The translations under genes and the position numbers were made by a program. From positions 1 to 64,000 of the forward strand of contig CANRIO010000001.1 of the NCBI GenBank assembly GCA_947630605.1: a stretch of DNA of 64,000 nt. The letters are read 5' to 3'. The notes beneath the pieces were generated by a model. The model did not search any database, was not told where the DNA came from, and saw nothing but the letters and a program-made list of their open reading frames with translations. Below are positions 1,241 through 62,651 of this stretch, one piece after another. Each line of letters begins with the position of its first letter. Position 1 is the stretch's first letter. Source of the stretch: an uncultured Clostridia bacterium (GTDB taxonomy: Bacteria > Bacillota > Clostridia > Christensenellales > Borkfalkiaceae).

Positions 1241-1380
1241 CGCGTGTCATTCTGAGGCGCAGCCGAAGAATCCCTACAAAACCAACAAGGCGCATTGAGA
1301 GGGGGTCTCCTCCGCCGCGATAAGTGCGTACTTCGCCTTCGGCTCGTGCGCCGCTATCGCGGCGTCGAGATGAGGAGAAA
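1241..1380. repeat. Dispersed intergenic hairpin repeat (locus R1)
   Basis: ATTCT-ga-GGC-gca-GCC-ga-AGAAT hairpin (1249-1271), tacttc-GCC-ttc-GGC-tcgtgcg and gcggcgtcgagatgagga; same units recur at R2-R8. Confidence 0.75.
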
Positions 1381-13202: not shown

Positions 13203-13455
13203 CGCGTCATGCTGCCCCGCCCGCACGTTCTGATCGCCATCGAAGGTCGGCACGAGTGCCGACTTTCGGCACGAAGTAACGTAGTTGAAGCATCACATTA
13301 TTATTCGGACTTCGTATCAGGGGATTCTTCGGGGAGTTGCCCCGTCGGAAATCCATATAAACCCCATCGCCTCAGAATGACGCGCTTACCACAATTCGGA
13401 CTTTGTAATTCGGGATTCTTCGCTTCGCTCAGAATGACGCGAACCCACTAACCCC
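13203..13455. repeat. Dispersed intergenic hairpin repeats (locus R2)
   Basis: CGGCAC-ga-GTGCCGA-ctt-TCGGCAC-ga (13248-13274), ATTCT-tc-GC-ttc-GC-tc-AGAAT (13415-13435). Confidence 0.8.
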
Positions 13456-13588
13456 TCGCCCGTCGTCATTTCGTCTGAAAAGGCATTCATTCGACAGCGT
13501 TTTTTTCTTCTAAACGCAAAAGATGCGGCATACATTGTTATAGCTCGGGCGAAAAGCCCCCCCAACGAAAATTTTAAGAGGTGACGCA

Positions 13589-14320
13589 ATGAGTGATGAA
13601 TTGAGTTATGCCGAGATGCTCGAGATCCCCGTGGAGACGGTGACCGTCAGCAAGAAGGAAAAAAAGAAAAAGTGGAGAGAGGAGCCGCTCTCCGATCAGC
13701 TCGTGAAGGAGGTCAACGACCGCATGGAGGCGAGCGACCCCGCCTATGCCGAGAGTAAGCCCATCGAGCGCGAATACGGCCTGCGGCCCAAAAAGAGTGC
13801 GAATGCGAGGAAGATCCTCATCGCCGAACTCGTCGCCGTCGTCGCCCTGTGTGCGACCATCTTCCTCACCAATCTCCTTCTCCCCAACAGCGCGATCAAC
13901 ACCGCCGTGCGCGGGCTCTTCAAGGGGAAGGCGGCGGAGGCGACGGACACGCGCACCTATGCGGACTTCACCCTCTCCCCCGTCGTCTCGGGCGATGCGG
14001 AAGTGGAGGTGACCGTCTCCGACAGCGGCATGCTCACCTTTACGGGCGACACCGTCGTCTATGTGCCCGCAGAGGGCAAACTCGAGACGCTCTCGGGAAC
14101 GCCTGCGACGGGCTACACCGCGCGCATCCGCCACTCGGACAGTTTCTCCACGATCATCAGCGGGCTGGACGGCGTCGGCCATGAGATCGGCGAGACCATC
14201 CGCCCCGGCGTGCCCTTCGGCTACACCGACGGCGATGGAGCGGTGAACGTCATCTTCTATGACGGCGAGAATGTCATCCAAAACGTCGCACTCACCGAGG
14301 GCACCCTTGCATGGAGCTGA
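13589..14320 (+). CDS. spoIVFA: SpoIVFA-like membrane protein (degenerate LytM/M23)
   Basis: Single TM after a charged N-terminus, LytM-like C-terminal half, directly upstream of an M50 protease. Confidence 0.55.
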   Translation: MSDELSYAEMLEIPVETVTVSKKEKKKKWREEPLSDQLVKEVNDRMEASDPAYAESKPIEREYGLRPKKSANARKILIAELVAVVALCATIFLTNLLLPNSAINTAVRGLFKGKAAEATDTRTYADFTLSPVVSGDAEVEVTVSDSGMLTFTGDTVVYVPAEGKLETLSGTPATGYTARIRHSDSFSTIISGLDGVGHEIGETIRPGVPFGYTDGDGAVNVIFYDGENVIQNVALTEGTLAWS

Positions 14321-17108: not shown

Positions 17109-17140
17109 TTATAAAAGAAGTTATAGTTTGAAAAGTCAAC

Positions 17141-17187
17141 ATCTTACACACGATCTTGCACACGATCTTGCACACGATCTTGCACAC
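17141..17187. repeat. 12-bp tandem repeat (ACACGATCTTGC)
   Basis: Three perfect units plus partial flanking units. Confidence 0.9.
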
Positions 17188-20481: not shown

Positions 20482-20785
20482 TTTTCTCCTCATCTCGACG
20501 ACACGATAGTGGCGCACGAGCCGCAGGCGAAGTAACGCGGGGTACTACCCGCGTGAGACAGCTGTCACGCTCCGCGTGACTGATGAGGGTTCTTGCTGAG
20601 AGGGGATTCCTCACTTCGTTCGGAATGAGGACGGGGGTTACCGCGTCATCCTACGTCCTCATCTCGACGCGCCGAAGGCGCGGAGGGACCCGACGTAGTG
20701 CATCGAGAGGGGTTCCCTCGCCGCCTTTGGCGGCTCGGAATGAGGACAGAACAAGCCTCGGAATGAGGACATGCCCCTCCGTGTC
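20482..20785. repeat. Dispersed intergenic hairpin repeats (locus R3)
   Basis: cgaGCCgcaGGCgaagtaacg, GTCACGC-tcc-GCGTGAC, ATTCC-tc-AC-ttc-GT-tc-GGAAT (20606-20626), TTCC-ctc-GCCGCC-ttt-GGCGGC-tc-GGAA (20713-20740). Confidence 0.85.
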
Positions 20786-25261: not shown

Positions 25262-25495
25262 CACCGTTCCAAATTCGTCATGCTGAGCTTGTCGAAGCAT
25301 CACCTTATAATCGGACTTCGTATCGGGGGATTCTTCGGCTTTGCCTCAGAATGACGCGGTTCACCCATCGGCTACTTCGCGCCAAGGCGCTCGTGCCGCG
25401 CTTAGTCTACAAATAGAAGCTTCGCGCGGGGCAGAATGACGCGAACCCCTAACCACTGTAATGCCCCCTCCGTGGGAGGGGGGTAGGGCGGATTT
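25262..25495. repeat. Dispersed intergenic hairpin repeats (locus R4)
   Basis: ATGCTgagcttgtcgaAGCAT; ATTCT-tc-GGC-ttt-GCC-tc-AGAAT (25330-25352); CGGCtAC-ttc-GCGCC-aa-GGCGC-tc-GTGCCG (25369-25398). Confidence 0.85.
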
Positions 25496-29550: not shown

Positions 29551-30423
29551 TTAAGCCGCTTTGCGGCGGCGGGTGGCGGCCGTGTAGATCCAAAACGGCG
29601 AGGAAAGCAGGATATAGACGGGAATGAGATACACAAACGCGGGCACGACGAGCCACAGCACGGGGAAATAGAACGGCTTTCCCCCGTTGATGTGGAAGGC
29701 GTCCGTCCGCAAAAAGGTCGGAACAAGCGGGTCGAAGATCTTATGCGCCCAGGCGAAGTCGGGGCGGATGCCGAACGTGAAACTGCTGTTCCGGAAGCCC
29801 GCATCCAAAAGGTCGGCAAACTTGCCGTCGACGAGTCCCACGCCCATCAGGAAAAATTCGTTGAGGCAGATGATCGTCTCCCAAAGAAGGAACAAAAGCG
29901 GGATCGCCCAAAGGCGCGAGATGCGTGGACGATAGACGCCGAGGATGGCCGCCGCCATCGGCACAGCCATCAAATTGATGTGGCAGATGTAGAAACGGAT
30001 GGTATCGAAGGCAAAGGGCGGCATGCCGATCGCCTCCGTCGGATAGAAAAGCGCGGCGAGCCCGCCTACGACCCCGATAAAATAGACGAAGTCATGCAGG
30101 GCGTTCTGCTTCTTGAAAAGGTAGATGAAAGGGAAGAAGACGGTCGAGACGGCGCAGAGGTTTTCCACCGTCGAACGGCGGATGGACTGCGGGAAGTTGT
30201 TGCGATAGGGCACAAACGCCTGCTTGATAAAGTGCAGCGAAAAATTCAGAAACAGAATGACAAGGAGCACCGTATGCGCGGTCCTCTTTTTTCGTTTCCA
30301 AAGGATGAGCACGAGCAGGGCAAGATACACTGCCGCGATCCCGATATACAGGAAATAATATCCGTTTCCGATCTGTACAAGCATAGGCTTTTGTGTTGAT
30401 TGTGAAAAAAGGATACGCGTCAT
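29551..30423 (-). CDS. YwaF/TIGR02206-like integral membrane protein
   Basis: Multi-TM, FYICHINLMAVPMAAAIL, W..NEFFL pattern; start may be internal M at 30384. Confidence 0.65.
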   Translation of the reverse strand: MTRILFSQSTQKPMLVQIGNGYYFLYIGIAAVYLALLVLILWKRKKRTAHTVLLVILFLNFSLHFIKQAFVPYRNNFPQSIRRSTVENLCAVSTVFFPFIYLFKKQNALHDFVYFIGVVGGLAALFYPTEAIGMPPFAFDTIRFYICHINLMAVPMAAAILGVYRPRISRLWAIPLLFLLWETIICLNEFFLMGVGLVDGKFADLLDAGFRNSSFTFGIRPDFAWAHKIFDPLVPTFLRTDAFHINGGKPFYFPVLWLVVPAFVYLIPVYILLSSPFWIYTAATRRRKAA

Positions 30424-30632
30424 CCTGAGCCAAACTGTTTTACGCAGTCCGCGAGAGCTTATCCTCGAAGGATCCCCTTAATGAAAATTCGGACTTCGTA
30501 TCTCGGGATTCTTCGGGGAATTGCTCACGGTTTTCATTTGGCTTTGTCGGCTCAGAATGACGCGATTCCCGCCCTCATTCGTCGCCCGAAGGCGGCACCT
30601 TCCCCCGCGAACGGGGGAAGGCGGGTTGCCGT
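30415..30632. repeat. Dispersed intergenic hairpin repeats (locus R5)
   Basis: ATCCTgag...cgaAGGAT; gggattcttcgggg..ctcagaatgacg; CCTTCCCCCgcgaacGGGGGAAGG. Confidence 0.75.
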
Positions 30633-33600
30633 TTAGTCTTCTTTGCCGGGAAGGGTGGTTTCGGAGAGCATGCGGGCAAACGCGGCGGCGGGAGCGTATG
30701 CGGTGCCGTTGGCGTCAACGCCAGATCCGTCGGGCCACTGCACACCCTTCAAGGAGTTTTTGAGGTTCTCAGTGTGTCCCTCTCTGTCGCCGATGATCGA
30801 GTAATCCCGATACACATTCTCCTTATGCCACTTGATATGCTCGTAGTTCCTTACGTCCTTATCCTTAAATTCGCACTGCAAACGGATATAACGGTTGTCG
30901 GAGAACAAGCTATTCATATCCGCATTGCCTGTAAATTTACTACCTGACATCACAGCAGTCGCATTATCCAATCTCGCCTCTCCATTCATCATTTCATACG
31001 TCAAAGCGTAATACGAAAACAAAAGGTTTTTGCTCACAAGTCTTGCATTTTCATTCAATGCGCCTGCGCCGTCCGAGAGCGGTTTATATTCGCCGTTGGT
31101 CCAAACATATGTCTTTCCGCTCAGATCCGAAGCGGCAAATGCCAATACATTGACGTAGATCCTATCGGTTCCGATAAGACTATTTGCATCGGCAGAAACA
31201 GTTTTCCCGTGCCATTCAAAATAATCTTTAACGCTCGGTACTACCATATTAAACATTCCGCCGACCATCGAGTTCAAGTTTAACAGCGCGGGTTGATTGA
31301 AATAGTTAAGAATATCGATCGTACCCTTATAATAAAAATTTATTTCCTGCTCACTACCATTATCAGCCTGAACAGAAGTACCGACTTCCGTCATTACGAT
31401 ATTTTCGGCATACATAGACAAGCCGTTATAATAAAGCTGTACCGCAGTCTTGGGAACACAGGAAAATACGGTGTTCTTCGTGTAGAACGTGTTGCCCGAC
31501 GGGTTGAACTTGTAGTAGTACGAGAGGTCGCAATAGTAGGCGTATTCCATTTTGAGAACCATTTTTTGCATTGTGCTGCTGATTTCTTCGGTGGGATTTG
31601 CGCATTTGATAATGGTATTATATGCCCTATTGACCGTAATGCCGTCGCTTTCGCTATAAGAACTCATCGAGGCGGTCTTTGCCTCAAAATTCACTTGATA
31701 CCCGTTACCGTAGATCGTGGTCTTACCCAGTGTGCCGGCGTTATTCAAATACAAGTCGTTGGCCTTTGCCTTTTCATCTTCTTTCGTATCCGCGCCGAGT
31801 TCGCCAGGACCATACAAATTGGTTTGCAATACGACATTGCTATTTGTATTGAACCCCGTGGCATTGAAGACGTTGACAAGAGCGTCGTCGGCGAGAATGT
31901 TGAAGTTGAAATAGGAATCTTTTCCCTTTCCATCCTCATTGTATCCCGCACCGAAAGTTGCTCCGACACGCAGGAAGGTGTAGGAGGTCTCTGTGCTGAC
32001 CGTGAAATCTCTGCCGCTATTATCCGCCGCCGTCGGCTGCTTTTGGGTGTATTTCGGTTTTTCATCGAAGTTTCCGAAGTAATCGTTCTGCACGTCGGTC
32101 TCGGAGAGCCCTGTAAAGCCTCCGAAGTAGAGGTGGGCATAGCCCGCTTCGGCATAGACGTCCACCCACGGAACCTTTGTCGTCCCGAGGTACTTGCCGC
32201 CCTCGGCAATAGGCGTACCGTCCGCGGTTTGAAGCTTTGACGACGCACCGTTTGCGCCGGGAACGATAGTATATACTGTAGTGTGCGAACCCTTGGTGAA
32301 AGTGACTTGCGTGCCCGTCTGCGTGAGCGTGAATACATTTTCTCCGCTCATTGGAGCATTGCCTTTGAAACCCGTGAAGGTCCAGGTGAGATCTGCGACG
32401 GGGATCTGTTCCGCTGTCGTACTCGCATTTTTTATCGCCCTGATGGGAAGTTTGAAGTAGTCGACGACGCCTGCGCCGTAATCGCTGTGCTTGGCGAAGA
32501 CGCGCACCTGCTGATATCCCTTATAGACGTCGCCGCCATTCGCCTTGTTCCCGCTGTCGAAGCCGGGGAAAACGATACTCAGATTGTAATGGGAGAGGGT
32601 CACGTTGATCGTCTTTCCATAGGCGATAACTGCACACGTTATCTTAAAATCACCGGTAGATTCAGTGTGGAAGATGATCTGTCCTTGTTCTTCCTCGACG
32701 GATATCGTCCAGCCCGTTGGATCTTCCGGCTCCACGATTCGGCCGGAGAAATCCTGTGCCTCATATCCGCCGAGATAATTTTCCGCATCAACTTTGATCT
32801 CAAAGGTAATGGCGCCCTGCATATCTCCGGGGACAGTATAGTTGAGCGTCTCGCCGCCCGAAACGTCTTCGATCGAGGCGAAAGTATTCCTTTCTATCGA
32901 ATCGATCACAAACAGATCATACCCGAATTCCGGATTGGCGACATGCTCGAGAAGGATCTGGATCTCAGCGCCTCCATCTGCCGAGCGGAAGAAGAGCGAG
33001 TTGCTTCCCGACGAAGCGATCCCCGTTACGGTGACCGTTGTATTAACCGAATTGCTTGTTACCGTATGATCCCAGCTCTCACCGTCGAAACACCATTGGA
33101 TGTTTTTATTCGGGATATCTATTTCATCGTTACGGCCAATTTCGACTTGGAATGTGAGACTATCGAGGACGGTCCTGTATTTTGTCGTTTTGTCGAGCGT
33201 TATTAAATTTGCTCCCGTCCCGCCTTTCACCTCAATGGTCTGTGTCCTTGCTACTACGGAGACATTTAATTCAAATGACTGACCAAAGATTTCGAGATAC
33301 ATTATCTCATTTTGGCAATATTTTACCGCCTTCAAATCAATTTGCGTGATAGAGCCATATGCTGCACTAACGCCATATTTTGTTACTGCACCACTTCCGG
33401 TTAATTTTACATTGGAAGCAAGAACAAAATTCATATACTTATCTTGGGTATCGATCGGATCCAACAAGCCTGAACGTTCATTAACTTTCACGCCGGTAAT
33501 CCCAAAGCTATAATAGCTTTCTACCTCGATAAATTCAATATCAGTCGGACCGTTCGGGTTTAATGTAAACCTTGCTTCAGACGTTGTATTATGATCTCCT

Positions 33601-36600
33601 TTGTGATATGTTATGGTCGGCTTAGAGAGAAGTGTGCCCTGTGAGGAACGAACATACCGATCTACGGCTTTCGTGCCATTGTCTTCTTCGCCAACAAACG
33701 CCGTGGCATCGTTGGTGTATTCCACGCTAAAGGTGAATTTATGATAATCTGTTCCACTCAATGTCACTTTGCCGCCGGAAAGGGTGAGTGTGCCATCCTC
33801 GCCCGTCAAGAGTTCCTTGCCATCGAATAATACATGCAGTTTCTTGCCTGCCATGGAACCGTTTTCATCCGCCATGGTGACAGTATAGCCGCTTATTTCA
33901 CCATAATAAGTATGGTATATGTATTCCTCTTCGTAATAAACAGAGGAGATATATTCCCCAACGGACACATGATCTAAAAATTTACCGTTTGTTTGAAACT
34001 CTATCGTGAAGCTCTCCTCCGTTACGGGCACGTCGACGTAGACTTTGACGGTGCAAGGCTTGCCGTCAATGGTGAGGGTGACAGTCGCGAAACCGCCCTT
34101 TTGCGGCACGATATACCATGTGCCGTTCTTCTCTTCAAGGGCGACGACATCGTCTTCCGAGGCGCCACAGGACACCTCTTGCCCTTCGGCTAAGGTGAAG
34201 TAGAAAGCGGCCTGTTCTTGCGCCATGCCATATTTGAGGACGATGTTATTCTCACCTTCGGCAAAGTCGATCTTCTTCAAGTTGCCGCCTTCTTCATAAG
34301 CAGCGTAGCCGACGGTGATCTCTTTGGAGAGCGTGAGCGTGGTCTCGCCGCGCTTCATCGCGACCGTAACGGTGACAACGCCTTCCTTTTGGAAGGTGAG
34401 AACGCCGCTTCCGTCGACAGAAGCAATGCCTTCGCCCTCTTTGATCGAATAGGAGACAACATCCGTATGGGCCTCGGGGGCCACATGCATGATATCGCTT
34501 ATATCGTACCGATCTTCACTCGTCACGACCTTGGAATAGTCGAGCGTGAGCGTCTCCGCGTTGCGCTGGAGGGTCTTCTCAACAGTAATGGCTTTAAGGC
34601 CGTCGTTATCGACATGGTATGTCTCTATCGACTCGGCGGTGTATTCCACGCCGAAGGTGACTTTGAGCGAGCCGAGGCCCTTTCCGAAGGGGATGGTGCC
34701 TGTATACTTGTTGACGGTTCCCTCTGTCGTCATGGCGACTTCGGCGGTATTTTTGCCGTAAGTGACGACGAGCTTCTTGCCTTCCATCTTGCCGTCGGAA
34801 TTGTCGACGGTGACAGTGAAGGAAACGCTTTCCGCAGTCGTGCCGAGGGTGTCGGCGTTTCCAATATCCACTTGGAGATCTTCATCCTTGACTGCGGCGT
34901 CGACATACACGTTGAGGGTGTATCTCTTTTCGCCCGCCGTGACGGTGACCGTTGCAAATCCGCCCTTGAGCGCCGTGACGGTGTAGGCTCCCTCGATCCC
35001 TTCGGAGACTTTTTCGACCCTGACGACGGAATCGTCGCCAAGCGTGACTTTTTCGCCGATCTCATCGCCGTTTTGTACGGTGAAGTAAATGCGCGCTGTG
35101 CCGTTGGGAGCGAGGACAATGTTCTGCGTGAGGCTTTCCGCCGTGCCAAAGTCGATATCCTTATCGGTGGCGGGCAGATGGGTGACGGTGATCTCCTTCG
35201 TGAAGGTAACTTCGTTGCCGCGCATCGTCTTGATGAGGACTTTGACGGTGCAAAGAGTGTCGCCCTCAAAGGAAAGCGTATTGCCCGTGAAGCTTGCGCC
35301 GTTGCCCTCGACCGCGTACTGAATTCCGTTTTCCGTGTGATTCTCGGGCGCGAGGGTGTAGGTCACATTGGCTGCGCGATCGCCGAAGGTGAGAGACGTA
35401 GCACGGGTGATGAGAGCTACGGTATCGGTTGCGCCGCCGTATGCGACGGTGATCGCGCTCACATTGCGCTCGATGGTGCGTATGGCGGTACCGGAGTCCT
35501 GTTTGGGATCGAAGTCCGCCGTGGCCTCCGCATCGTACTCCACGCCGAAGGTGACGGAAAGAGCGGAGAGATCTTTTGCAAAGGGAATTGTGCCCGTGAA
35601 CGAACTGCCCGCATTTTCCGCAGAGACATGCTTCGGCTCACCGTTCAAGGAGTAGCTTATATAGAACTTCTTGCCCTCCATAGCGCCTTCGTTTCCGCTC
35701 CCATCGAAGGTGACGGTGAAGGGAACATCCGTCGTCGAAGTCGTGCCGAAAGTCCCGGTGCACTCGGTGCCGTTGAATTGTACTTTATAGTTTTCCGTCT
35801 TGACGGTGCGGTCAACATAGAGTTGGATCGTGAATACCGTATTTTCGCCGCCGCCCGTTGGCGTGACGGTGACGGTGACGGTCGCGAAACCGCCCTGTCT
35901 GGTCACGATCTTGGGCATTGCAGATCCCTGTTCGGTCACTTCGACAACGCCGGCGCCCCCGGTGACCTCGTAGGAAACGGTCGCGTCGGTGGGTTTACTG
36001 TAGATAATGTTGCCCGTATCGCCGAAGTTGAGAAGAACTTTTTGCACGCTCTTATCGGCGGAAAGCTCGATGTTGACCTGCTCCTTCACGCGCGGCTGAT
36101 AGGTGACAACGATGGTCTCAGTGGCAACTGCGGTGCCGTCGTCGCCGAGAAGAGAAAGCTTGACTGTGACTTTCGTCGCCTCCGTCATATCCTCCGTCGT
36201 TTTGAATGTCAGGACGCCGGTGGATGTAATGGACGCCATGTCCGTCCTTTCTCCAAGGGAATAGGAGAGCGTGTTCGTGTGGTTCGCAGGTGCCACAGCG
36301 ACGCCGACCTGCGAGGCATTGGTAGATTCGACACCGCCCGCGATGAAGGTAAGCGTCGTCTGGGTGGTGGAAATATTTTCGACCTCTTCACCCTTGTAGA
36401 TAAAGTTTGCGCCCGTCGCATTGCGCTTCAATGTGACGCTGCGAGAAACCTTTAGCGTCTCCGCCTTTGCTCCGTATCCCAAAGCATCGTCGCTGTATTT
36501 CACGCTGAAGGTGACAACAAGCGTGGCTTGATCTTTGAAGTCGATGGAGCCGTTGAGGCTGGCTACGTCCGCCTCGCCTTCTTGCTTCACGGTTTCATAC

Positions 36601-39600
36601 GTCACATAGAGCTTTTTGCCCTGCATGGAGCCATCTTTTTCGTTGACGGTGAGGGTGTAAGCAACCGCATCATCCGCCGTGCCGAAGGTGTAGCCCGCTC
36701 CGTTATAATAAGGATCCTTCTCGCCGAATTTGATCGTGAAATCGTCTGCGGAGAGGGGAACGTCGACGAAGACATTGACGGTGTATTCTTTTTCGCCTGC
36801 GGTGACGGTAACGGTTGTGAAGCCGCCCTTTTTCGCCGTGAGCGTGTATGCGCCCGCAGAAATCTCTTTGAGTTCTACGACGCCATCTTCGGCGACCTGT
36901 GCCAAAGCGGTCTCTCCCGTCGGAACGGAGAGATAGAGGTTGGCCATATCGCCCTTTGCAAAGAGGACATGAAAGCTCTCTTTTTCAGCCGTGCCGAGAT
37001 CGATATCCCGATCGGTCTTGGGAAGATAGGTAACGAGGATCTCCTTTGTGAAGGTGACTTCGTTGCCGCGCTTTATTGATATCGTGACCGTGACGGTGTG
37101 CGCCGCGGCCGTATCTGTGAAGGTGAGGGTGGAAGAACCTTTGAACTCCGCGCCATCGCCCGAAACGGAATATGTGATACCCGTATCCGTGTGGTTTGCG
37201 GGCAGAACGGTCACTGCGGCGTCCGGGCCGAATCTGAGCGTCGGGGAGTTCGTGACGATATTTTCCGTCTCCTCTGCGCCGCCGTATGCGACTTTGACCT
37301 CGCTCGCATTGCGGTGCAAAGTGAGCGTACGCGTGACAGTCTCGAGGTTCTTCGCATTTGCGTGCAATCTGAGTGCGTCTTCGGTGTACTCGACGCCGAA
37401 GGTGACGGGAAGCGTGGAGAGGTCTGTGCCGAACGCGATGGCATTCCCGGCATCGCTCACAAGCGCGGCGATGTCGTCTGAGCCGTATATCTTCACTTCT
37501 TCGCCGTTCTTCGTATACTTCAAATAGAGCTTTTTGCCCTGCATGGAACCTTCCTTTTCGGTGACGGTGAAGTCATAGGGGACGCTCGTCAAAGCCGTGC
37601 CGAAGATGGCGCCCGGGACGAGGGAGCCGCCAAGTGTGACGGCAAGATCTTCCCCTCCGACGGGGCGGTCGACATAGACCTCGAAGGTGTAGACCTTCAC
37701 GCCGTCTGCCGCAGACTGCGCACGGCGGGTGCGGACAGGTTCGGGCGAATCGGGCGTGACGGTGATGGTGATGGTGGCAAAACCGCCTCTCTGAGGCACG
37801 ATGTATTGGACGCCGTTGCGCTCTTCGATCCTGACAGCCGGTTTCTCTGCGGGGTCCGCCCCCGGCTCTTCCACAACTTCGTAAGCGACCGTTGTACCTG
37901 CAGGTTCGGCGAAGTAGAGGATGCCCTGTTCCTGTTTCTCCTCGGTGTCGCCCATATTGAGGACGATCGGGGGCTGTTCGGGCGCTTCTTCGCCCTCTGC
38001 GCTCTCGACGACCTCAATGCCCTTGGGCGGCGTCACGTCCTCTTCTTGTTTGATGAGAGGGGCATAGGTGACGGTGACCTTCTTTTCGATCGTCACATGT
38101 TTTTCCGCATCGAGGAAGGAGACGGTGACGGTGACCGTGCCGGGCGCCTTGAACGTGAGCTTGCCCTGCGCCGTGATGGCCGCCGTAGTTTCGTCCCCCT
38201 CTGCGAGGGTGTAGCGGATCTCGTTCGTGTGGTTTGCGGGCAATGCGCTCACGATCGCGTAATTGGGACCGGCATTTGCCGGGGATGTATCGAATTTCAA
38301 GCTACATGATGTTTTTTGATCATCGTTCTCGTGAAGGACGATGGAGCCGACATCCTGCGTTTCTCCATAGGAGACGGTGGCGCTCGCCGCGTTGCGCTGG
38401 ACTTTGAGGATAAAGTAATCGCTGAACAGCTCGGTCGTGCCCTTCTTGCCTTCACCCGTCTTATAGACGTACGCCTCCACATCTACGCGGATGGAGGTGC
38501 GTCCTGCGGGCATTTCTCCTACGAAATAGAATTTGATGTCACTCTGATCCGTCGCATCCACACGAAGGACGCCAGGGATCTCAAATGTCGCCTGCTTAAA
38601 CTCGCGGGAAGTGCCTGCAAGGTTGGGCGCAAATGCGATGGGAAGAGGCGTTGTGCCGTCTTTGTAGTCCTCGTAATTGACCGTGTACTCCTTCGGTGAG
38701 AAGAGCGGCGGCATGTAATAGCCGTCCGTCGAGGTATAGCTCTTATACTTCACGACCTTGTGGCCGCCGAAGTCTTCGCCCGTCACGGTGATGGTGACCT
38801 GCCCTTCGCGGCTGAATTTGACGTTCCCCTCTTCATCCACGGTGGCAATGGACTCATCGCTCGAGGTATATGTGATCTGCGCGTCTGCATCGGCTGGAAC
38901 ACACGTTACGGTGGGGAGCTTGAACTCCTTCAGGGGAGAGACGACCGCCTTCGTCTCGAAAGACAGATCGCGGAGCTGTTTGTGGCAGACGAAGGTGATG
39001 GAGTCCGACTTCGTGGGGTCGTCGTTGGAAGTCGCCGTGATCGTCGCCTTGCCCGCGCCGCGCGCAGTGATGGTGCCGTTCGCGCTCACATGCAGAATGT
39101 CGTCGTTGTCACTCGTCCATTTGAGGGACTTGTTCTCCGCATCTTTGGGGATGAAGGAGACAGAGAGTTCCAACTTCTCGCCCTCATAGAGGTCGGTCTT
39201 CCCGATCGCGTCTCTGTTCAGGGAGATCGCGTGGACCTTGGTATCCGTGACGATGACTTTGCGCTTTGCGATCGCCGCTTTATTTTCCTTGCTCACGACG
39301 TAGATGTACGTCTCGCCGTAATAGGAGGCCTTTACGACGCCATTTTCGTCGACCGTGACGATGCTTTCATCATCGGTCCCGAATTTGAGGTCGCGATTCT
39401 TCGCTCTGAGAGGAAGGATGGTGATCTCATCTGTTACGTCGTATGTAGGCGGAGCATTTTCGTCGCTCATGGTGAGGATGAGCGCTTCGTTTTTGATAAA
39501 TTCCACCGATTCGACGTAGATGTGTGTGACCATGCTCATGATCGCACCGCTCACAAGCAAGATCGCAAGGAGCAGGATCGGCAGGAGTATGATCGTCGAA

Positions 39601-39617
39601 ACCATCAACTTTTTCAT
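30633..39617 (-). CDS. Giant (~2,994 aa) membrane-anchored surface protein with Big2/Ig-like repeats
   Basis: N-terminal TM (MKKLMVSTIILLPILLLAILLVSG), Big2-like LKWTSDNDDILHVSANGTITARGAGKATITATS, five long repeats (GxMxGKKxY, NHTxxxxYx, GGFATVTVT). Confidence 0.88.
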   Translation of the reverse strand: MKKLMVSTIILLPILLLAILLVSGAIMSMVTHIYVESVEFIKNEALILTMSDENAPPTYDVTDEITILPLRAKNRDLKFGTDDESIVTVDENGVVKASYYGETYIYVVSKENKAAIAKRKVIVTDTKVHAISLNRDAIGKTDLYEGEKLELSVSFIPKDAENKSLKWTSDNDDILHVSANGTITARGAGKATITATSNDDPTKSDSITFVCHKQLRDLSFETKAVVSPLKEFKLPTVTCVPADADAQITYTSSDESIATVDEEGNVKFSREGQVTITVTGEDFGGHKVVKYKSYTSTDGYYMPPLFSPKEYTVNYEDYKDGTTPLPIAFAPNLAGTSREFKQATFEIPGVLRVDATDQSDIKFYFVGEMPAGRTSIRVDVEAYVYKTGEGKKGTTELFSDYFILKVQRNAASATVSYGETQDVGSIVLHENDDQKTSCSLKFDTSPANAGPNYAIVSALPANHTNEIRYTLAEGDETTAAITAQGKLTFKAPGTVTVTVSFLDAEKHVTIEKKVTVTYAPLIKQEEDVTPPKGIEVVESAEGEEAPEQPPIVLNMGDTEEKQEQGILYFAEPAGTTVAYEVVEEPGADPAEKPAVRIEERNGVQYIVPQRGGFATITITVTPDSPEPVRTRRAQSAADGVKVYTFEVYVDRPVGGEDLAVTLGGSLVPGAIFGTALTSVPYDFTVTEKEGSMQGKKLYLKYTKNGEEVKIYGSDDIAALVSDAGNAIAFGTDLSTLPVTFGVEYTEDALRLHANAKNLETVTRTLTLHRNASEVKVAYGGAEETENIVTNSPTLRFGPDAAVTVLPANHTDTGITYSVSGDGAEFKGSSTLTFTDTAAAHTVTVTISIKRGNEVTFTKEILVTYLPKTDRDIDLGTAEKESFHVLFAKGDMANLYLSVPTGETALAQVAEDGVVELKEISAGAYTLTAKKGGFTTVTVTAGEKEYTVNVFVDVPLSADDFTIKFGEKDPYYNGAGYTFGTADDAVAYTLTVNEKDGSMQGKKLYVTYETVKQEGEADVASLNGSIDFKDQATLVVTFSVKYSDDALGYGAKAETLKVSRSVTLKRNATGANFIYKGEEVENISTTQTTLTFIAGGVESTNASQVGVAVAPANHTNTLSYSLGERTDMASITSTGVLTFKTTEDMTEATKVTVKLSLLGDDGTAVATETIVVTYQPRVKEQVNIELSADKSVQKVLLNFGDTGNIIYSKPTDATVSYEVTGGAGVVEVTEQGSAMPKIVTRQGGFATVTVTVTPTGGGENTVFTIQLYVDRTVKTENYKVQFNGTECTGTFGTTSTTDVPFTVTFDGSGNEGAMEGKKFYISYSLNGEPKHVSAENAGSSFTGTIPFAKDLSALSVTFGVEYDAEATADFDPKQDSGTAIRTIERNVSAITVAYGGATDTVALITRATSLTFGDRAANVTYTLAPENHTENGIQYAVEGNGASFTGNTLSFEGDTLCTVKVLIKTMRGNEVTFTKEITVTHLPATDKDIDFGTAESLTQNIVLAPNGTARIYFTVQNGDEIGEKVTLGDDSVVRVEKVSEGIEGAYTVTALKGGFATVTVTAGEKRYTLNVYVDAAVKDEDLQVDIGNADTLGTTAESVSFTVTVDNSDGKMEGKKLVVTYGKNTAEVAMTTEGTVNKYTGTIPFGKGLGSLKVTFGVEYTAESIETYHVDNDGLKAITVEKTLQRNAETLTLDYSKVVTSEDRYDISDIMHVAPEAHTDVVSYSIKEGEGIASVDGSGVLTFQKEGVVTVTVAMKRGETTLTLSKEITVGYAAYEEGGNLKKIDFAEGENNIVLKYGMAQEQAAFYFTLAEGQEVSCGASEDDVVALEEKNGTWYIVPQKGGFATVTLTIDGKPCTVKVYVDVPVTEESFTIEFQTNGKFLDHVSVGEYISSVYYEEEYIYHTYYGEISGYTVTMADENGSMAGKKLHVLFDGKELLTGEDGTLTLSGGKVTLSGTDYHKFTFSVEYTNDATAFVGEEDNGTKAVDRYVRSSQGTLLSKPTITYHKGDHNTTSEARFTLNPNGPTDIEFIEVESYYSFGITGVKVNERSGLLDPIDTQDKYMNFVLASNVKLTGSGAVTKYGVSAAYGSITQIDLKAVKYCQNEIMYLEIFGQSFELNVSVVARTQTIEVKGGTGANLITLDKTTKYRTVLDSLTFQVEIGRNDEIDIPNKNIQWCFDGESWDHTVTSNSVNTTVTVTGIASSGSNSLFFRSADGGAEIQILLEHVANPEFGYDLFVIDSIERNTFASIEDVSGGETLNYTVPGDMQGAITFEIKVDAENYLGGYEAQDFSGRIVEPEDPTGWTISVEEEQGQIIFHTESTGDFKITCAVIAYGKTINVTLSHYNLSIVFPGFDSGNKANGGDVYKGYQQVRVFAKHSDYGAGVVDYFKLPIRAIKNASTTAEQIPVADLTWTFTGFKGNAPMSGENVFTLTQTGTQVTFTKGSHTTVYTIVPGANGASSKLQTADGTPIAEGGKYLGTTKVPWVDVYAEAGYAHLYFGGFTGLSETDVQNDYFGNFDEKPKYTQKQPTAADNSGRDFTVSTETSYTFLRVGATFGAGYNEDGKGKDSYFNFNILADDALVNVFNATGFNTNSNVVLQTNLYGPGELGADTKEDEKAKANDLYLNNAGTLGKTTIYGNGYQVNFEAKTASMSSYSESDGITVNRAYNTIIKCANPTEEISSTMQKMVLKMEYAYYCDLSYYYKFNPSGNTFYTKNTVFSCVPKTAVQLYYNGLSMYAENIVMTEVGTSVQADNGSEQEINFYYKGTIDILNYFNQPALLNLNSMVGGMFNMVVPSVKDYFEWHGKTVSADANSLIGTDRIYVNVLAFAASDLSGKTYVWTNGEYKPLSDGAGALNENARLVSKNLLFSYYALTYEMMNGEARLDNATAVMSGSKFTGNADMNSLFSDNRYIRLQCEFKDKDVRNYEHIKWHKENVYRDYSIIGDREGHTENLKNSLKGVQWPDGSGVDANGTAYAPAAAFARMLSETTLPGKED

Positions 39618-39776
39618 AGGAACACCTCTTTTTTCTTTCTGAGTTTTTATGTTTCCGCCCGCTCTGCAGTAGCGGCGTGTCACTGCCGCACGGATCCGGA
39701 AGGGAGAGGGGAGGACGATATAGATAAGGGGGACATAGACGAGTGGTGGGAAATCGTGCTTTCCGGCACCGTCTCG

Positions 39777-47277: not shown

Positions 47278-47480
47278 GCGTCATCCTGCCCCGCCCGCAC
47301 GTTCTGATCGCCAACGAAGGGCGGCACGAGGGGCAAAGCCCCGAAGTAGCCGAAACGGCTATACCATGTCCGAGAGAGCCCTTCCCCGAAGCATCCCGAG
47401 GATGAAAACACGGACTTTGATAAACAGCACGCCATTCTAAAATTCGTCATGCTGAGCCTGTCGAAGCATCGCCTTATGAT
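47278..47480. repeat. Dispersed intergenic hairpin repeats (locus R6)
   Basis: CGGCAC-ga-GGGGC-aaa-GCCCC-ga-aGTAGCCG (47322-47352); ATGCTgagcctgtcgaAGCAT. Confidence 0.8.
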
Positions 47481-51526: not shown

Positions 51527-51539
51527 GCGACTCGCGTAT

Positions 51540-51872
51540 AGGCTCCGCGTCATGCTGAGCCGAAACGGCAATTACGCAGTCCACGCGAGAAAGTCTCCGA
51601 AGCATCCCCTAATACGTAAGTTCGCGGGAATGACCTGCGTCATCCCTTTCTCTTCATCTCGACGCGCCGAAGGCGCGGAGGAGACCCCTACAGACCCATG
51701 AGGCTTTATCGCTTACGTAGGGATTCCCTCGCCCGCTCCGCGGGCTCGGAATGAGGACTTGCCCACCCCTCGAGGGGCGGGTGGCACGTTATCGGCTACT
51801 TCGGGGCGAAGCCCCTCGTGCCGCGCTTAGTCTACAAATAGAAGCTTCGCGCGGGGCAGAATGACGCGAAAG
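51540..51872. repeat. Dispersed intergenic hairpin repeats (locus R7)
   Basis: ATTCC-ctc-GCCCGC-tcc-GCGGGC-tc-GGAAT (51723-51752); CGGCtAC-ttc-GGGGC-gaa-GCCCC-tc-GTGCCG (51793-51823). Confidence 0.88.
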
Positions 51873-51920
51873 CACGACGAAGTATTTCGCAGCCTATACG
51901 CGATTCGCAAGAAATAAACC

Positions 51921-60752: not shown

Positions 60753-62267
60753 ATGGAAAAAATCGGTATTATCGATCTGGGTTCCAATTCGGCGCGTCTT
60801 GTCATCGTCGAGATGTTCGGCGACGGTCACTTTATGGTGGTGGACGAACTCAAGGAGAGCGTCCGCCTCGGGCAGGATATGGACAGGGACGGCTTCTTAA
60901 AGCCCCAGCGGGTGGCGGAGACCATCAAGACGCTCAAGATGTTCCGCCGTCTTGCGGACGCTTCGGGGGTCGAGCGCATCATCGCAGTCGCGACGGCGGC
61001 AGTCCGCCGTGCGAAGAACCAGCGCTCTTTCCTCGATGAGATCCAGGCGACCTGCGGCATCCGCGTCAGCGTGCTCTCCGAGGAGGAGGAGGCGACGCTC
61101 GTCTACCGCGGCGTCATCAATTCGATGGAAGTGCCCCGCGGCATCATCCTCGAGATCGGCGGCGGAAGCACGAAGATCATCTATTACAACCGCCGCTGTA
61201 TCATCAACTATGCAAATCTTCCCTTCGGCGCAGTCACCCTCACCGACCTCTTCAAGGACGACGGCTTGAAGCCCGAGGAGCAGACGGACAGGATCGAACA
61301 GTTCTTCACCGAACAGTTCAAGAAGATCGACTGGCTCACCGAGGTGGAGCCCGACACCCAGATGATCGGCGTGGGCGGCTCCTTCCGCAATCTCTATAAG
61401 ATCAACCGCATCATCCGCAAATACCCCCTCAACATCGTGCACAACTATCAGTTCACGGTGGAGGACTTCGACGCCGTCTACGAGATGGTGCGCGTCCTCG
61501 ACGTCGAGAAGCGCAAGCGCATCCGCGGCCTTTCGCCCGCCCGTGCGGACATCATGCCCGCCGCGCTTGCCATCATCAAGGCGTTCACGAGCTACCTCAA
61601 TGTGGAAAGTTTCACCGTCGGCGGATGCGGCCTTCGCGAGGGGATCATGTTCAACGAGGCCCTGCCCATCACGGTGGAGCGGCCCATCTCCGACGTGCTC
61701 TCCTACTCTCTCTCCACCCTCGTCCGCTATTACGGCTGCGACGAGAAGCATGTGGAACATGTCGTCCATCTCTCCATCCAACTCTTCAAACAGCTCCGCG
61801 TCTTGCACAAGTTCCCGCGCATCTATCTCAAAGTTCTCAAGATCGCGGCCAGCCTGCACGACTGCGGCACCCGCATCCGCTACTACAGCAATCCCCTGCA
61901 TGCCCGCTATATGATCCTGAGCAGCGGCATCTACGGGGCCACCCATAAGGAGATCGTCCTCGCCGCCTTCGTCGCGGGGTGCCACAAAAAGGAGGAGCTC
62001 TCCCCGCAGGAGTGGGCACGCTTCAAGGACATCGTCACGGACGAGGACCTCGACGTCGTGAAAAAGCTCGGCGTGCTCCTTCGCATCGCCGAGTGCCTCG
62101 ACAGGAGCGGCCTCGGCATGGTGACGGGCATCAACTGCGACGTTCTGGGCGACTCCGTCATCATGAAGACGGAGCTTGCGGGCGACGCCACCCTCGAGAT
62201 CAGCCAGGCGATGGAGGCGGGGGGAGAATTCAAACGCAACTTCAAAAAAAATCTGGAGATCTTATAG
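60753..62267 (+). CDS. ppx: Ppx/GppA exopolyphosphatase/pppGpp phosphatase with HD-type C-terminal domain
   Basis: GIIDLGSNSARLVI, IILEIGGGSTKI, AASLHDCG. Confidence 0.92.
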   Translation: MEKIGIIDLGSNSARLVIVEMFGDGHFMVVDELKESVRLGQDMDRDGFLKPQRVAETIKTLKMFRRLADASGVERIIAVATAAVRRAKNQRSFLDEIQATCGIRVSVLSEEEEATLVYRGVINSMEVPRGIILEIGGGSTKIIYYNRRCIINYANLPFGAVTLTDLFKDDGLKPEEQTDRIEQFFTEQFKKIDWLTEVEPDTQMIGVGGSFRNLYKINRIIRKYPLNIVHNYQFTVEDFDAVYEMVRVLDVEKRKRIRGLSPARADIMPAALAIIKAFTSYLNVESFTVGGCGLREGIMFNEALPITVERPISDVLSYSLSTLVRYYGCDEKHVEHVVHLSIQLFKQLRVLHKFPRIYLKVLKIAASLHDCGTRIRYYSNPLHARYMILSSGIYGATHKEIVLAAFVAGCHKKEELSPQEWARFKDIVTDEDLDVVKKLGVLLRIAECLDRSGLGMVTGINCDVLGDSVIMKTELAGDATLEISQAMEAGGEFKRNFKKNLEIL

Positions 62268-62273
62268 GCGAAT

Positions 62274-62640
62274 CGCGCGTCATGCTGAGCCGACCAAGAG
62301 TGATGAAAACCGTGAGCCCATCCTCGAAGCATCCCGAACTACGAAGTCCGCGTTTTCATTAAGGGGATTCTTCGAAGAGTTTCCCCGTCGGAAATCCTTA
62401 TAAACCCCATCGGCTACTTCGCGCTAAAGCGCTCGTGCCGCGCTTAGTCTACAAATAGAAACTTCGCGCGGGGCAGAATGACGCTAACCACTCCTCATCT
62501 TGACGCCGCGTGTTTTACGTCCTCATCTCGACGCGCCGAAGGCGCGGAGGAGACCCCTACAGACCCAACGGGGCACATCGAGAGGGGATTCCCTCGCCTT
62601 CGGCTCGGAATGAGGACTTAATCCCTAACCCGTAACCACT
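62274..62640. repeat. Dispersed intergenic hairpin repeats (locus R8)
   Basis: ATGCTgag..cgaAGCAT; CGGCtAC-ttc-GCGCT-aa-AGCGC-tc-GTGCCG (62411-62440); ATTCC-ctc-GCC-ttc-GGC-tc-GGAAT (62588-62611). Confidence 0.88.
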
Positions 62641-62651
62641 AACCACGAACC

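Follow-up and report, generated by a model that had tools for sequence, protein, structure and literature searches.

The window analysed here, 64,000 nucleotides from an uncultured Clostridia bacterium (assembly GCA_947630605.1, contig CANRIO010000001.1, positions 1 to 64,000), holds a real family of small intergenic DNA hairpins, which is a clostridial branch of the CGTC-REP superfamily. The gene content of the genome suggests a gut-type member of this class. We estimate at roughly two chances in three that Ssn-type GIY-YIG endonucleases acting on single-stranded DNA use these repeats as target sites, the repeats probably being their non-autonomous spread copies.

Each hairpin unit consists, in order, of a tag, an arm (AT NNN), GA, an inner stem, a loop, a second GA, the opposing arm (NNN AT) and a tail. 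The tag is CGTC (or CCTC, TGTC) and the tail is CCC or CAC, and the outer arm of 5 bp is followed by the GA/GA internal loop and then by at least one inner pair. The letters of the inner stem vary; short forms have GAA or CTTGT-like loops, and the inner part of the long forms reaches ∼60 nt. Type A hairpins carry the CGTC tag with the arms ATGCT, ATTCT, ATCCT or ATGTT, and type B hairpins the CCTC tag with the arms ATTCC or TCTC. Using a pattern that fixed only the TC of the tag, we found 52 copies, with 41 CGTC, 9 CCTC and 2 TGTC tags. GA was invariant on either side in 24 aligned copies, though these had been selected for paired arms and a purine-rich loop start, and its constancy is only partly independent evidence; the AT of the arm and the tail were both built into the search pattern, and the constancy of the AT is not independent. 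The GA strand folded slightly better than its complement (26/34 as RNA, 22/34 as DNA), and since this preference is weak, the strand was chosen on the GA/GA argument and not on folding energies. The copies found in the window, and the two ends of an older element that encloses some of them, are the following.

1243..1276, plus strand: TGTC-tagged hairpin, ATTCT/AGAAT, GA/GA internal loop, GGC/GCC inner stem
1300..1377, minus strand: CCTC-tagged (type B) hairpin with a long inner part; inverted pair with 1243-1276
13319..13384, minus strand: CGTC hairpin, ATTCT arms, long inner loop
13410..13441, minus strand: CGTC hairpin ATTCT-GA-GC(GAA)GC-GA-AGAAT; source of RHSERSEES in a spurious open reading frame
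20601..20632, minus strand: CCTC-tagged hairpin, AC/GT inner stem
20707..20747, minus strand: CCTC-tagged hairpin, GCCGCC/GGCGGC inner stem
25274..25305, plus strand: CGTC hairpin ATGCT...AGCAT; left half of a tags-outward heterodimer with 25325..25358
25325..25358, minus strand: CGTC hairpin ATTCT...AGAAT; right half of the heterodimer with 25274..25305
30416..30478, plus strand: CGTC hairpin ATCCT/AGGAT, long inner part; left half of a dimer
30503..30564, minus strand: CGTC hairpin ATTCT/AGAAT, long inner part; right half of a dimer
47443..47474, plus strand: CGTC hairpin ATGCT/AGCAT, CCTGT loop
51527..51547, plus strand: older palindromic (MITE-like) element, left end, GCGACTCGCGTATAGGCTCCG
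51546..51610, plus strand: CGTC hairpin ATGCT/AGCAT, long inner part
51650..51690, plus strand: type B hairpin TCTC/GAGA; left half of a type B dimer
51718..51758, minus strand: CCTC-tagged hairpin ATTCC/GGAAT, GCCCGC/GCGGGC inner stem; right half of a type B dimer
51888..51908, minus strand: older palindromic (MITE-like) element, right end, CGCAGCCTATACGCGATTCGC
62276..62337, plus strand: CGTC hairpin ATGCT/AGCAT; left half of a dimer
62519..62559, plus strand: CCTC-tagged hairpin; left half of a type B dimer
62583..62617, minus strand: CCTC-tagged hairpin ATTCC/GGAAT; right half of a type B dimer

The initial annotation had quoted hairpins at 1249, 13415, 20606 and 25330 to the letter; those it gave at 20713, 51723 and 62588 are present, but carry a single additional G at the internal loop, on its 3' side. 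Its statement that the hairpin recurs in most larger intergenic gaps agrees with our count, in which hairpins fill about 8 of the 11-12 largest gaps of the window, and we found them, as it had said, in convergent, divergent and codirectional gaps. The segment 51540-51872, under which it had listed the family, does contain CGTC hairpins, but these coordinates cover a mosaic, the hairpins lying within what is left of a larger and older inverted repeat (51527-51547 / 51888-51908). Window hairpins tend to form tags-outward pairs of unlike units (25274+/25325-, 30416+/30503-, 62519+/62583-). Plain terminators were considered and rejected, the hairpins being present in both orientations with no U-run. 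An Rfam scan of the window returned tRNAs only.

The remark that such repeats give rise to 'RHSERSEES' was also correct for this genome: the open reading frame exists (13386-13589, minus strand), and RHSERSEES is the hairpin in translation. A literature search for this string gave no match. In the window and in locus L261 (open reading frame 1530-2042), hairpins are read as N-terminal extensions or as spurious protein (RHSERSEES, RHPERSEGS), even before a nuclease gene.

Pairing was then assessed in copies picked without regard to it. From 450 kb of the window's genome (1.34 Mb in 82 contigs, ∼74% complete) we took every copy with the tag, GA...GA and the tail, leaving the arm letters free. 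This arm-free pattern gave 35 distinct copies, and none when the sequence was reversed. At arm position 3, pairing was seen in 35/35 copies (34 Watson-Crick, 1 GU), compared to a mean of 12 and a maximum of 21 in shuffles. When relatives were added, the wider set of 75 distinct copies showed 72 Watson-Crick pairs, 3 GU pairs and no other combination at this position (T-A 31, G-C 19, C-G 17, A-T 5), with shuffles reaching a mean of 23.7 paired and a maximum of 35. The inner closing pair covaried as well (G-C 62, A-T 11). Arm position 5 was weaker in relatives (24/45), showing that the pressure on pairing is uneven along the arm. The matched changes of the outer arms, proposed earlier to be compensatory, are thus seen as near-perfect complementarity comprising all four Watson-Crick types, and covariation of both the arm and the inner pair backs selection on structure over sequence.

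Whether this structure is an RNA, or a DNA hairpin on which an enzyme acts, had been left as an alternative, and the latter is the better option of the two. If the hairpins acted mainly as RNA, as transcription attenuators or stabilisers of mRNA 3' ends, selection on stem pairing would account for the compensatory changes, the G-U pairs and the slightly better folding of the GA strand as RNA (26/34). However, hairpins in both orientations and in divergent gaps, with no U-run, do not fit such a role, nor does the finding that whole sites are empty in some species of a genus and filled in others. Of the species in the genus, about 58 are repeat-rich and about 45 repeat-poor, no copy being detected in about 27, and a role as RNA would leave unexplained the nuclease gene found between hairpins (see below). 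We therefore regard a mainly RNA role as quite improbable.

REPs with the CGTC tag were described as families CGTC-1 to CGTC-4, and include dRS3 of Neisseria and RPE-4/6 of Rickettsia (Di Nocera, De Gregorio & Rocco, 2013, PMC3733652). According to that survey, they have an unpaired 5' tag, CGTC or TGTC/CCTC, an 8-9 bp stem opening with complementary AT, a loop of 4-5 nt and a short unpaired 3' tail that is mostly CCA. Head-to-head dimers predominate, inverted dimers are often made of unlike units, and both CGTC and GTAG dimers occur within long palindromes. The survey describes CGTC REPs as having no dedicated transposase, with no Y1 transposase linked to them, and leaves their mode of spread open (Di Nocera, De Gregorio & Rocco, 2013, PMC3733652).

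The window repeats share with the CGTC REPs the CGTC tag and its TGTC/CCTC variants (the only tags seen in the 52 copies), AT at the first two stem positions and a CC-type tail, as well as intergenic siting, inverted dimers that are often of unlike units, location of dimers inside larger palindromes, and absence of a repeat-flanked Y1 gene. Their dimers are head-to-head, where we take this term of the survey to mean tags-outward. Unlike the plain stem of the CGTC REPs, the stem of the window family is interrupted by the GA/GA mismatch and continues into a variable inner stem; beside short forms with GAA or CTTGT-like loops it has inner parts of up to about 60 nt, compared to loops of 4-5 nt in the survey, and its tail, CCC or CAC, is close but not identical to CCA. 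The family is also found in Clostridia and in many phyla beyond the five of the 2013 survey. In the genome collection, a 20-letter core pattern matched at least 119 stretches from at least 15 phyla, compared to a chance expectation of ∼0.5 matches as estimated from 264 Gb and 4^-20. Among the matches listed are Bacteroidota, Omnitrophota, Verrucomicrobiota, Acidobacteriota, Planctomycetota, Chloroflexota, Patescibacteria, Fibrobacterota, Chlorobiota, Gemmatimonadota, Actinobacteriota, Campylobacterota, Pseudomonadota, Cyanobacteriota, Bacillota and others, which bears out the earlier suggestion of such repeats in unrelated genomes. In 80 of these foreign loci, neighbouring hairpins within 150 bp formed 57 tags-outward '+-' pairs, 11 '-+', 6 '++' and 3 '--' pairs, and 57/62 of all '+-' neighbours lay within this distance. 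Hairpins were counted here if they fitted the hairpin regular expression, copies for adjacency counts also having to pair, and copy counts per genome saturate near 70 (71 candidates scored).

The architecture of hairpin, tag and inverted dimer is the same as that of GTAG REPs, and it had been suggested that a REP-associated tyrosine transposase could be the enzyme involved. REPIN-like elements would then be moved by a Y1 HUH transposase, either RAYT or IS200 TnpA, and the genome of the window does encode one Y1 protein (G000:C13:8387-8743, locus L011). This protein, however, is an ordinary IS200 TnpA, scoring 146 bits on the IS200 TnpA model and 28 bits on the RAYT model, for which the cut-off is 80. 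The ends of its gene are unrelated to the hairpins, and no hairpins were found near it. Across the genus, where Y1 was surveyed with PF01797 only, seven repeat-rich genomes that are 93-99% complete (G009, G012, G020, G025, G030, G031 and G033) have no Y1, whereas five genomes with Y1 (G013, G017, G018, G027 and G034) carry no repeat copy or one. A Y1 partner is thus largely refuted for the window's genus, and we consider movement by a Y1 enzyme extremely improbable. What the CGTC system shares with REPIN/RAYT is a gene flanked by hairpins, here encoding a GIY-YIG protein, and non-autonomous dimers dispersed in intergenic DNA. The tag (CGTC-type, not GTAG) and the enzyme class (hydrolytic in the CGTC system) are different, and where a RAYT gene is flanked by its repeats, the window's genome has only the IS200 TnpA.

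Besides housekeeping genes, a recurrent small protein encoded beside hairpins in the at least 119 foreign loci was a GIY-YIG nuclease. The hairpin-linked protein is a single domain of ∼95 aa, with PF01541 matches in relatives, and the Y, Y, G, R, H, E and N of the GIY-YIG active site were invariant in the hairpin-flanked proteins. Within the genus, hairpins lay within 200 bp on both sides of 13/25 GIY-YIG genes (4 more were one-sided), compared to 4/621 control open reading frames from sampled same-genus stretches (p = 2e-17, an optimistic value because the species share ancestry, which may inflate the correlation). In other phyla, 9/18 GIY-YIG genes were flanked on both sides at this distance (3 more on one side), against 16/575 open reading frames from loci chosen for carrying hairpins (p = 3e-9); these genomes had been picked for carrying the core, and the count tests position, not co-occurrence. 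About half of the GIY-YIG genes tested were therefore not flanked on both sides.

Co-occurrence was addressed in a class-wide survey of 196 genomes across Clostridia, using a profile built from the hairpin-flanked proteins. The search separated 10 genomes at E<=6e-37 from the next match at 2e-19, where UPF0213-like proteins start. Repeats were present in 9/10 genomes with an Ssn-type nuclease, in comparison with 18/185 of the others (p = 5e-8), and eight families were represented. A hairpin lay within 250 bp of 9/10 Ssn-type genes, but of 0/20 UPF0213-like genes even in flanks of 1.5 kb. G235 was nuclease-positive with no repeats at the sensitivity used. In the window's genus, 30/31 nuclease-positive genomes were repeat-rich, the exception having 8 copies, and none was repeat-null. 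Taken together, these results point to the nuclease as the long-missing partner enzyme of the CGTC repeats, and tie CGTC REPs to one small nuclease subfamily across many phyla. Mosaic sites and tandem arrays could also arise if recombination and template switching multiplied palindromes passively, no enzyme being dedicated to them and the GIY-YIG genes being passengers. Passive duplication is very improbable, given that at least 15 phyla share one specific 20-letter core and that the same GIY-YIG subfamily is flanked in unrelated phyla while its UPF0213-like cousin is not.

Many repeat-rich genomes, including G105 (97% complete), G025 (94%) and G093 (94%), have no detectable Ssn-type gene, which indicates that copies can be retained without the nuclease. 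We found no nuclease gene in the window's genome (G000, 74% complete) or in its nearest relative (G115), where searches returned only UvrC at E 0.15-0.19, and the window copies may hence be orphans, the incompleteness of the genome being kept in mind. On the same branch, G009 has an intact nuclease gene and G092 a gene with a stop codon; the window's genome may have lost the gene. The genus, with its repeat-rich and repeat-poor species and its intact, broken and absent nuclease genes, is a natural experiment. Nuclease genes occupy various neighbourhoods within it, among them gyrB/gyrA, surE, queA and prepilin peptidase (names read from the sequences). The gyrB-gyrA gap measures 14-54 bp in G025, G002 and G108, and 960 bp in G096, where it contains the nuclease gene and six hairpins; in G103 and G086, with gyrA 95-96% identical to that of G096, the gap is ∼290 bp with no nuclease.

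Sites also differ between species in their hairpin content. The genes bordering 51527-51920 overlap or nearly touch (ATGA/GTGA type) in most same-genus genomes inspected, and the same pair is separated by 394 bp in the window's genome, 346 bp in G115, 607 bp in G092 and 306 bp in G009. Part of the filling in G009 and G092 is a large palindromic element whose ends resemble GCGAATCGCGTATAGGC. Both ends of this element survive in the window (51527-51547, 51888-51908), with CGTC hairpins between them. Near-touching genes in most relatives, and element ends that enclose the hairpins, suggest that an empty site received first the palindromic element and then the CGTC hairpins inside it. At 62277-62649 the nearest relative has a different mosaic, with flanks 88-93% identical. 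No clean insertion boundaries were found between the window's genome and this relative, because the sites are rearranged mosaics.

Ssn nucleases of Neisseria, GIY-YIG enzymes specific for single-stranded DNA, and their NTS target were reportedly described by Chenal, Veyrier and colleagues in Nature Communications in 2025; Ssn is said to cut the CGTC-1 repeat in single-stranded DNA and to modulate natural transformation. Both systems pair a small single-domain GIY-YIG protein with a many-copy genomic CGTC-type hairpin. The catalytic residues and the genomic tie to the hairpin are present here too, and site-specific cleavage of the hairpin in single-stranded DNA would be predicted. Unlike the Neisseria pair, the window's own genome has no detected nuclease gene, and the layout with the gene inside a dimer was measured here in several phyla. 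If the reported Ssn result is right, the pairing of nuclease and hairpin is partly known, and what is new is its breadth, the measured layout and the clostridial GA/GA variant.

The reported action of Ssn on a single-stranded repeat and on transformation, and the co-occurrence of repeats and nuclease gene, would equally be expected if the nuclease were a barrier to single-stranded DNA or a modulator of transformation, with repeats that are not mobile and are kept for tuning uptake or recombination. That repeats persist where the nuclease gene is not found, and that orthologous sites change composition fast, argue against such a self-mark, which we consider unlikely.

We favour the repeats as target sites and spread copies of the nuclease, which could operate as follows. 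The enzyme would recognise the tag and the folded hairpin in single-stranded DNA, present as lagging-strand template or as DNA taken up in conjugation or transformation, and would then cut. Host repair of the cut hairpin could place copies at new positions, preferentially in other palindromes between genes. Because GIY-YIG enzymes hydrolyse DNA without joining strands, the copying step would depend on host repair; GIY-YIG chemistry alone cannot transpose DNA. What the data show directly is the structure with its covariation, the anatomy of the family, its genomic link to the nuclease and the turnover of sites between species; cleavage of this hairpin, the strand acted on and the spreading reaction belong to the proposed mechanism. 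A nuclease gene between two hairpins would resemble an autonomous member of the family. More broadly, GIY-YIG and CGTC-hairpin pairs may constitute pan-bacterial mobile elements of single-stranded DNA, with the nuclease between hairpins autonomous and REP dimers its non-autonomous offspring, a proposal that we put forward tentatively, at somewhat below even odds. If true, CGTC REPs would gain the dedicated enzyme that was missing from the 2013 survey. If the pairing of nuclease and hairpin holds, the sequence that each nuclease cuts could be predicted from the genomic copies, to the benefit of single-strand DNA tools, and widespread spurious 'SERSEE'-type protein annotations would be explained.

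Other repeats were seen alongside the hairpins. The palindromic (MITE-like) element with GCGAATCGCGTATAGGC ends is a separate dispersed family, present whole at ∼300 bp in G009 (locus L072), with traces in the window at 51527-51547, 51888-51908 and 62267-62277 and in loci L003-L008; it often begins right at a stop codon and is a landing place for other repeats. Further dispersed repeats, CATCAGTCACGCGGAGCGTGACAGCTTCCCCC...GGGGGAAGCC and GCCCCCTCCGTGGGAGGGGG, are interleaved with CGTC hairpins (L046:15050-15450, L042:7950-8330, L071, L101), and in L046 they alternate with the hairpins in a tandem array of 111-bp period. Contig C1 of G115 (L099:4533-5557) has an insertion of 1 kb that carries an HPFIDGNGR (Fic-type) motif, where the window has 19 bp (17133-17153). 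Finally, the minus strand of the window contains an open reading frame of 3016 residues at 30633-39683.
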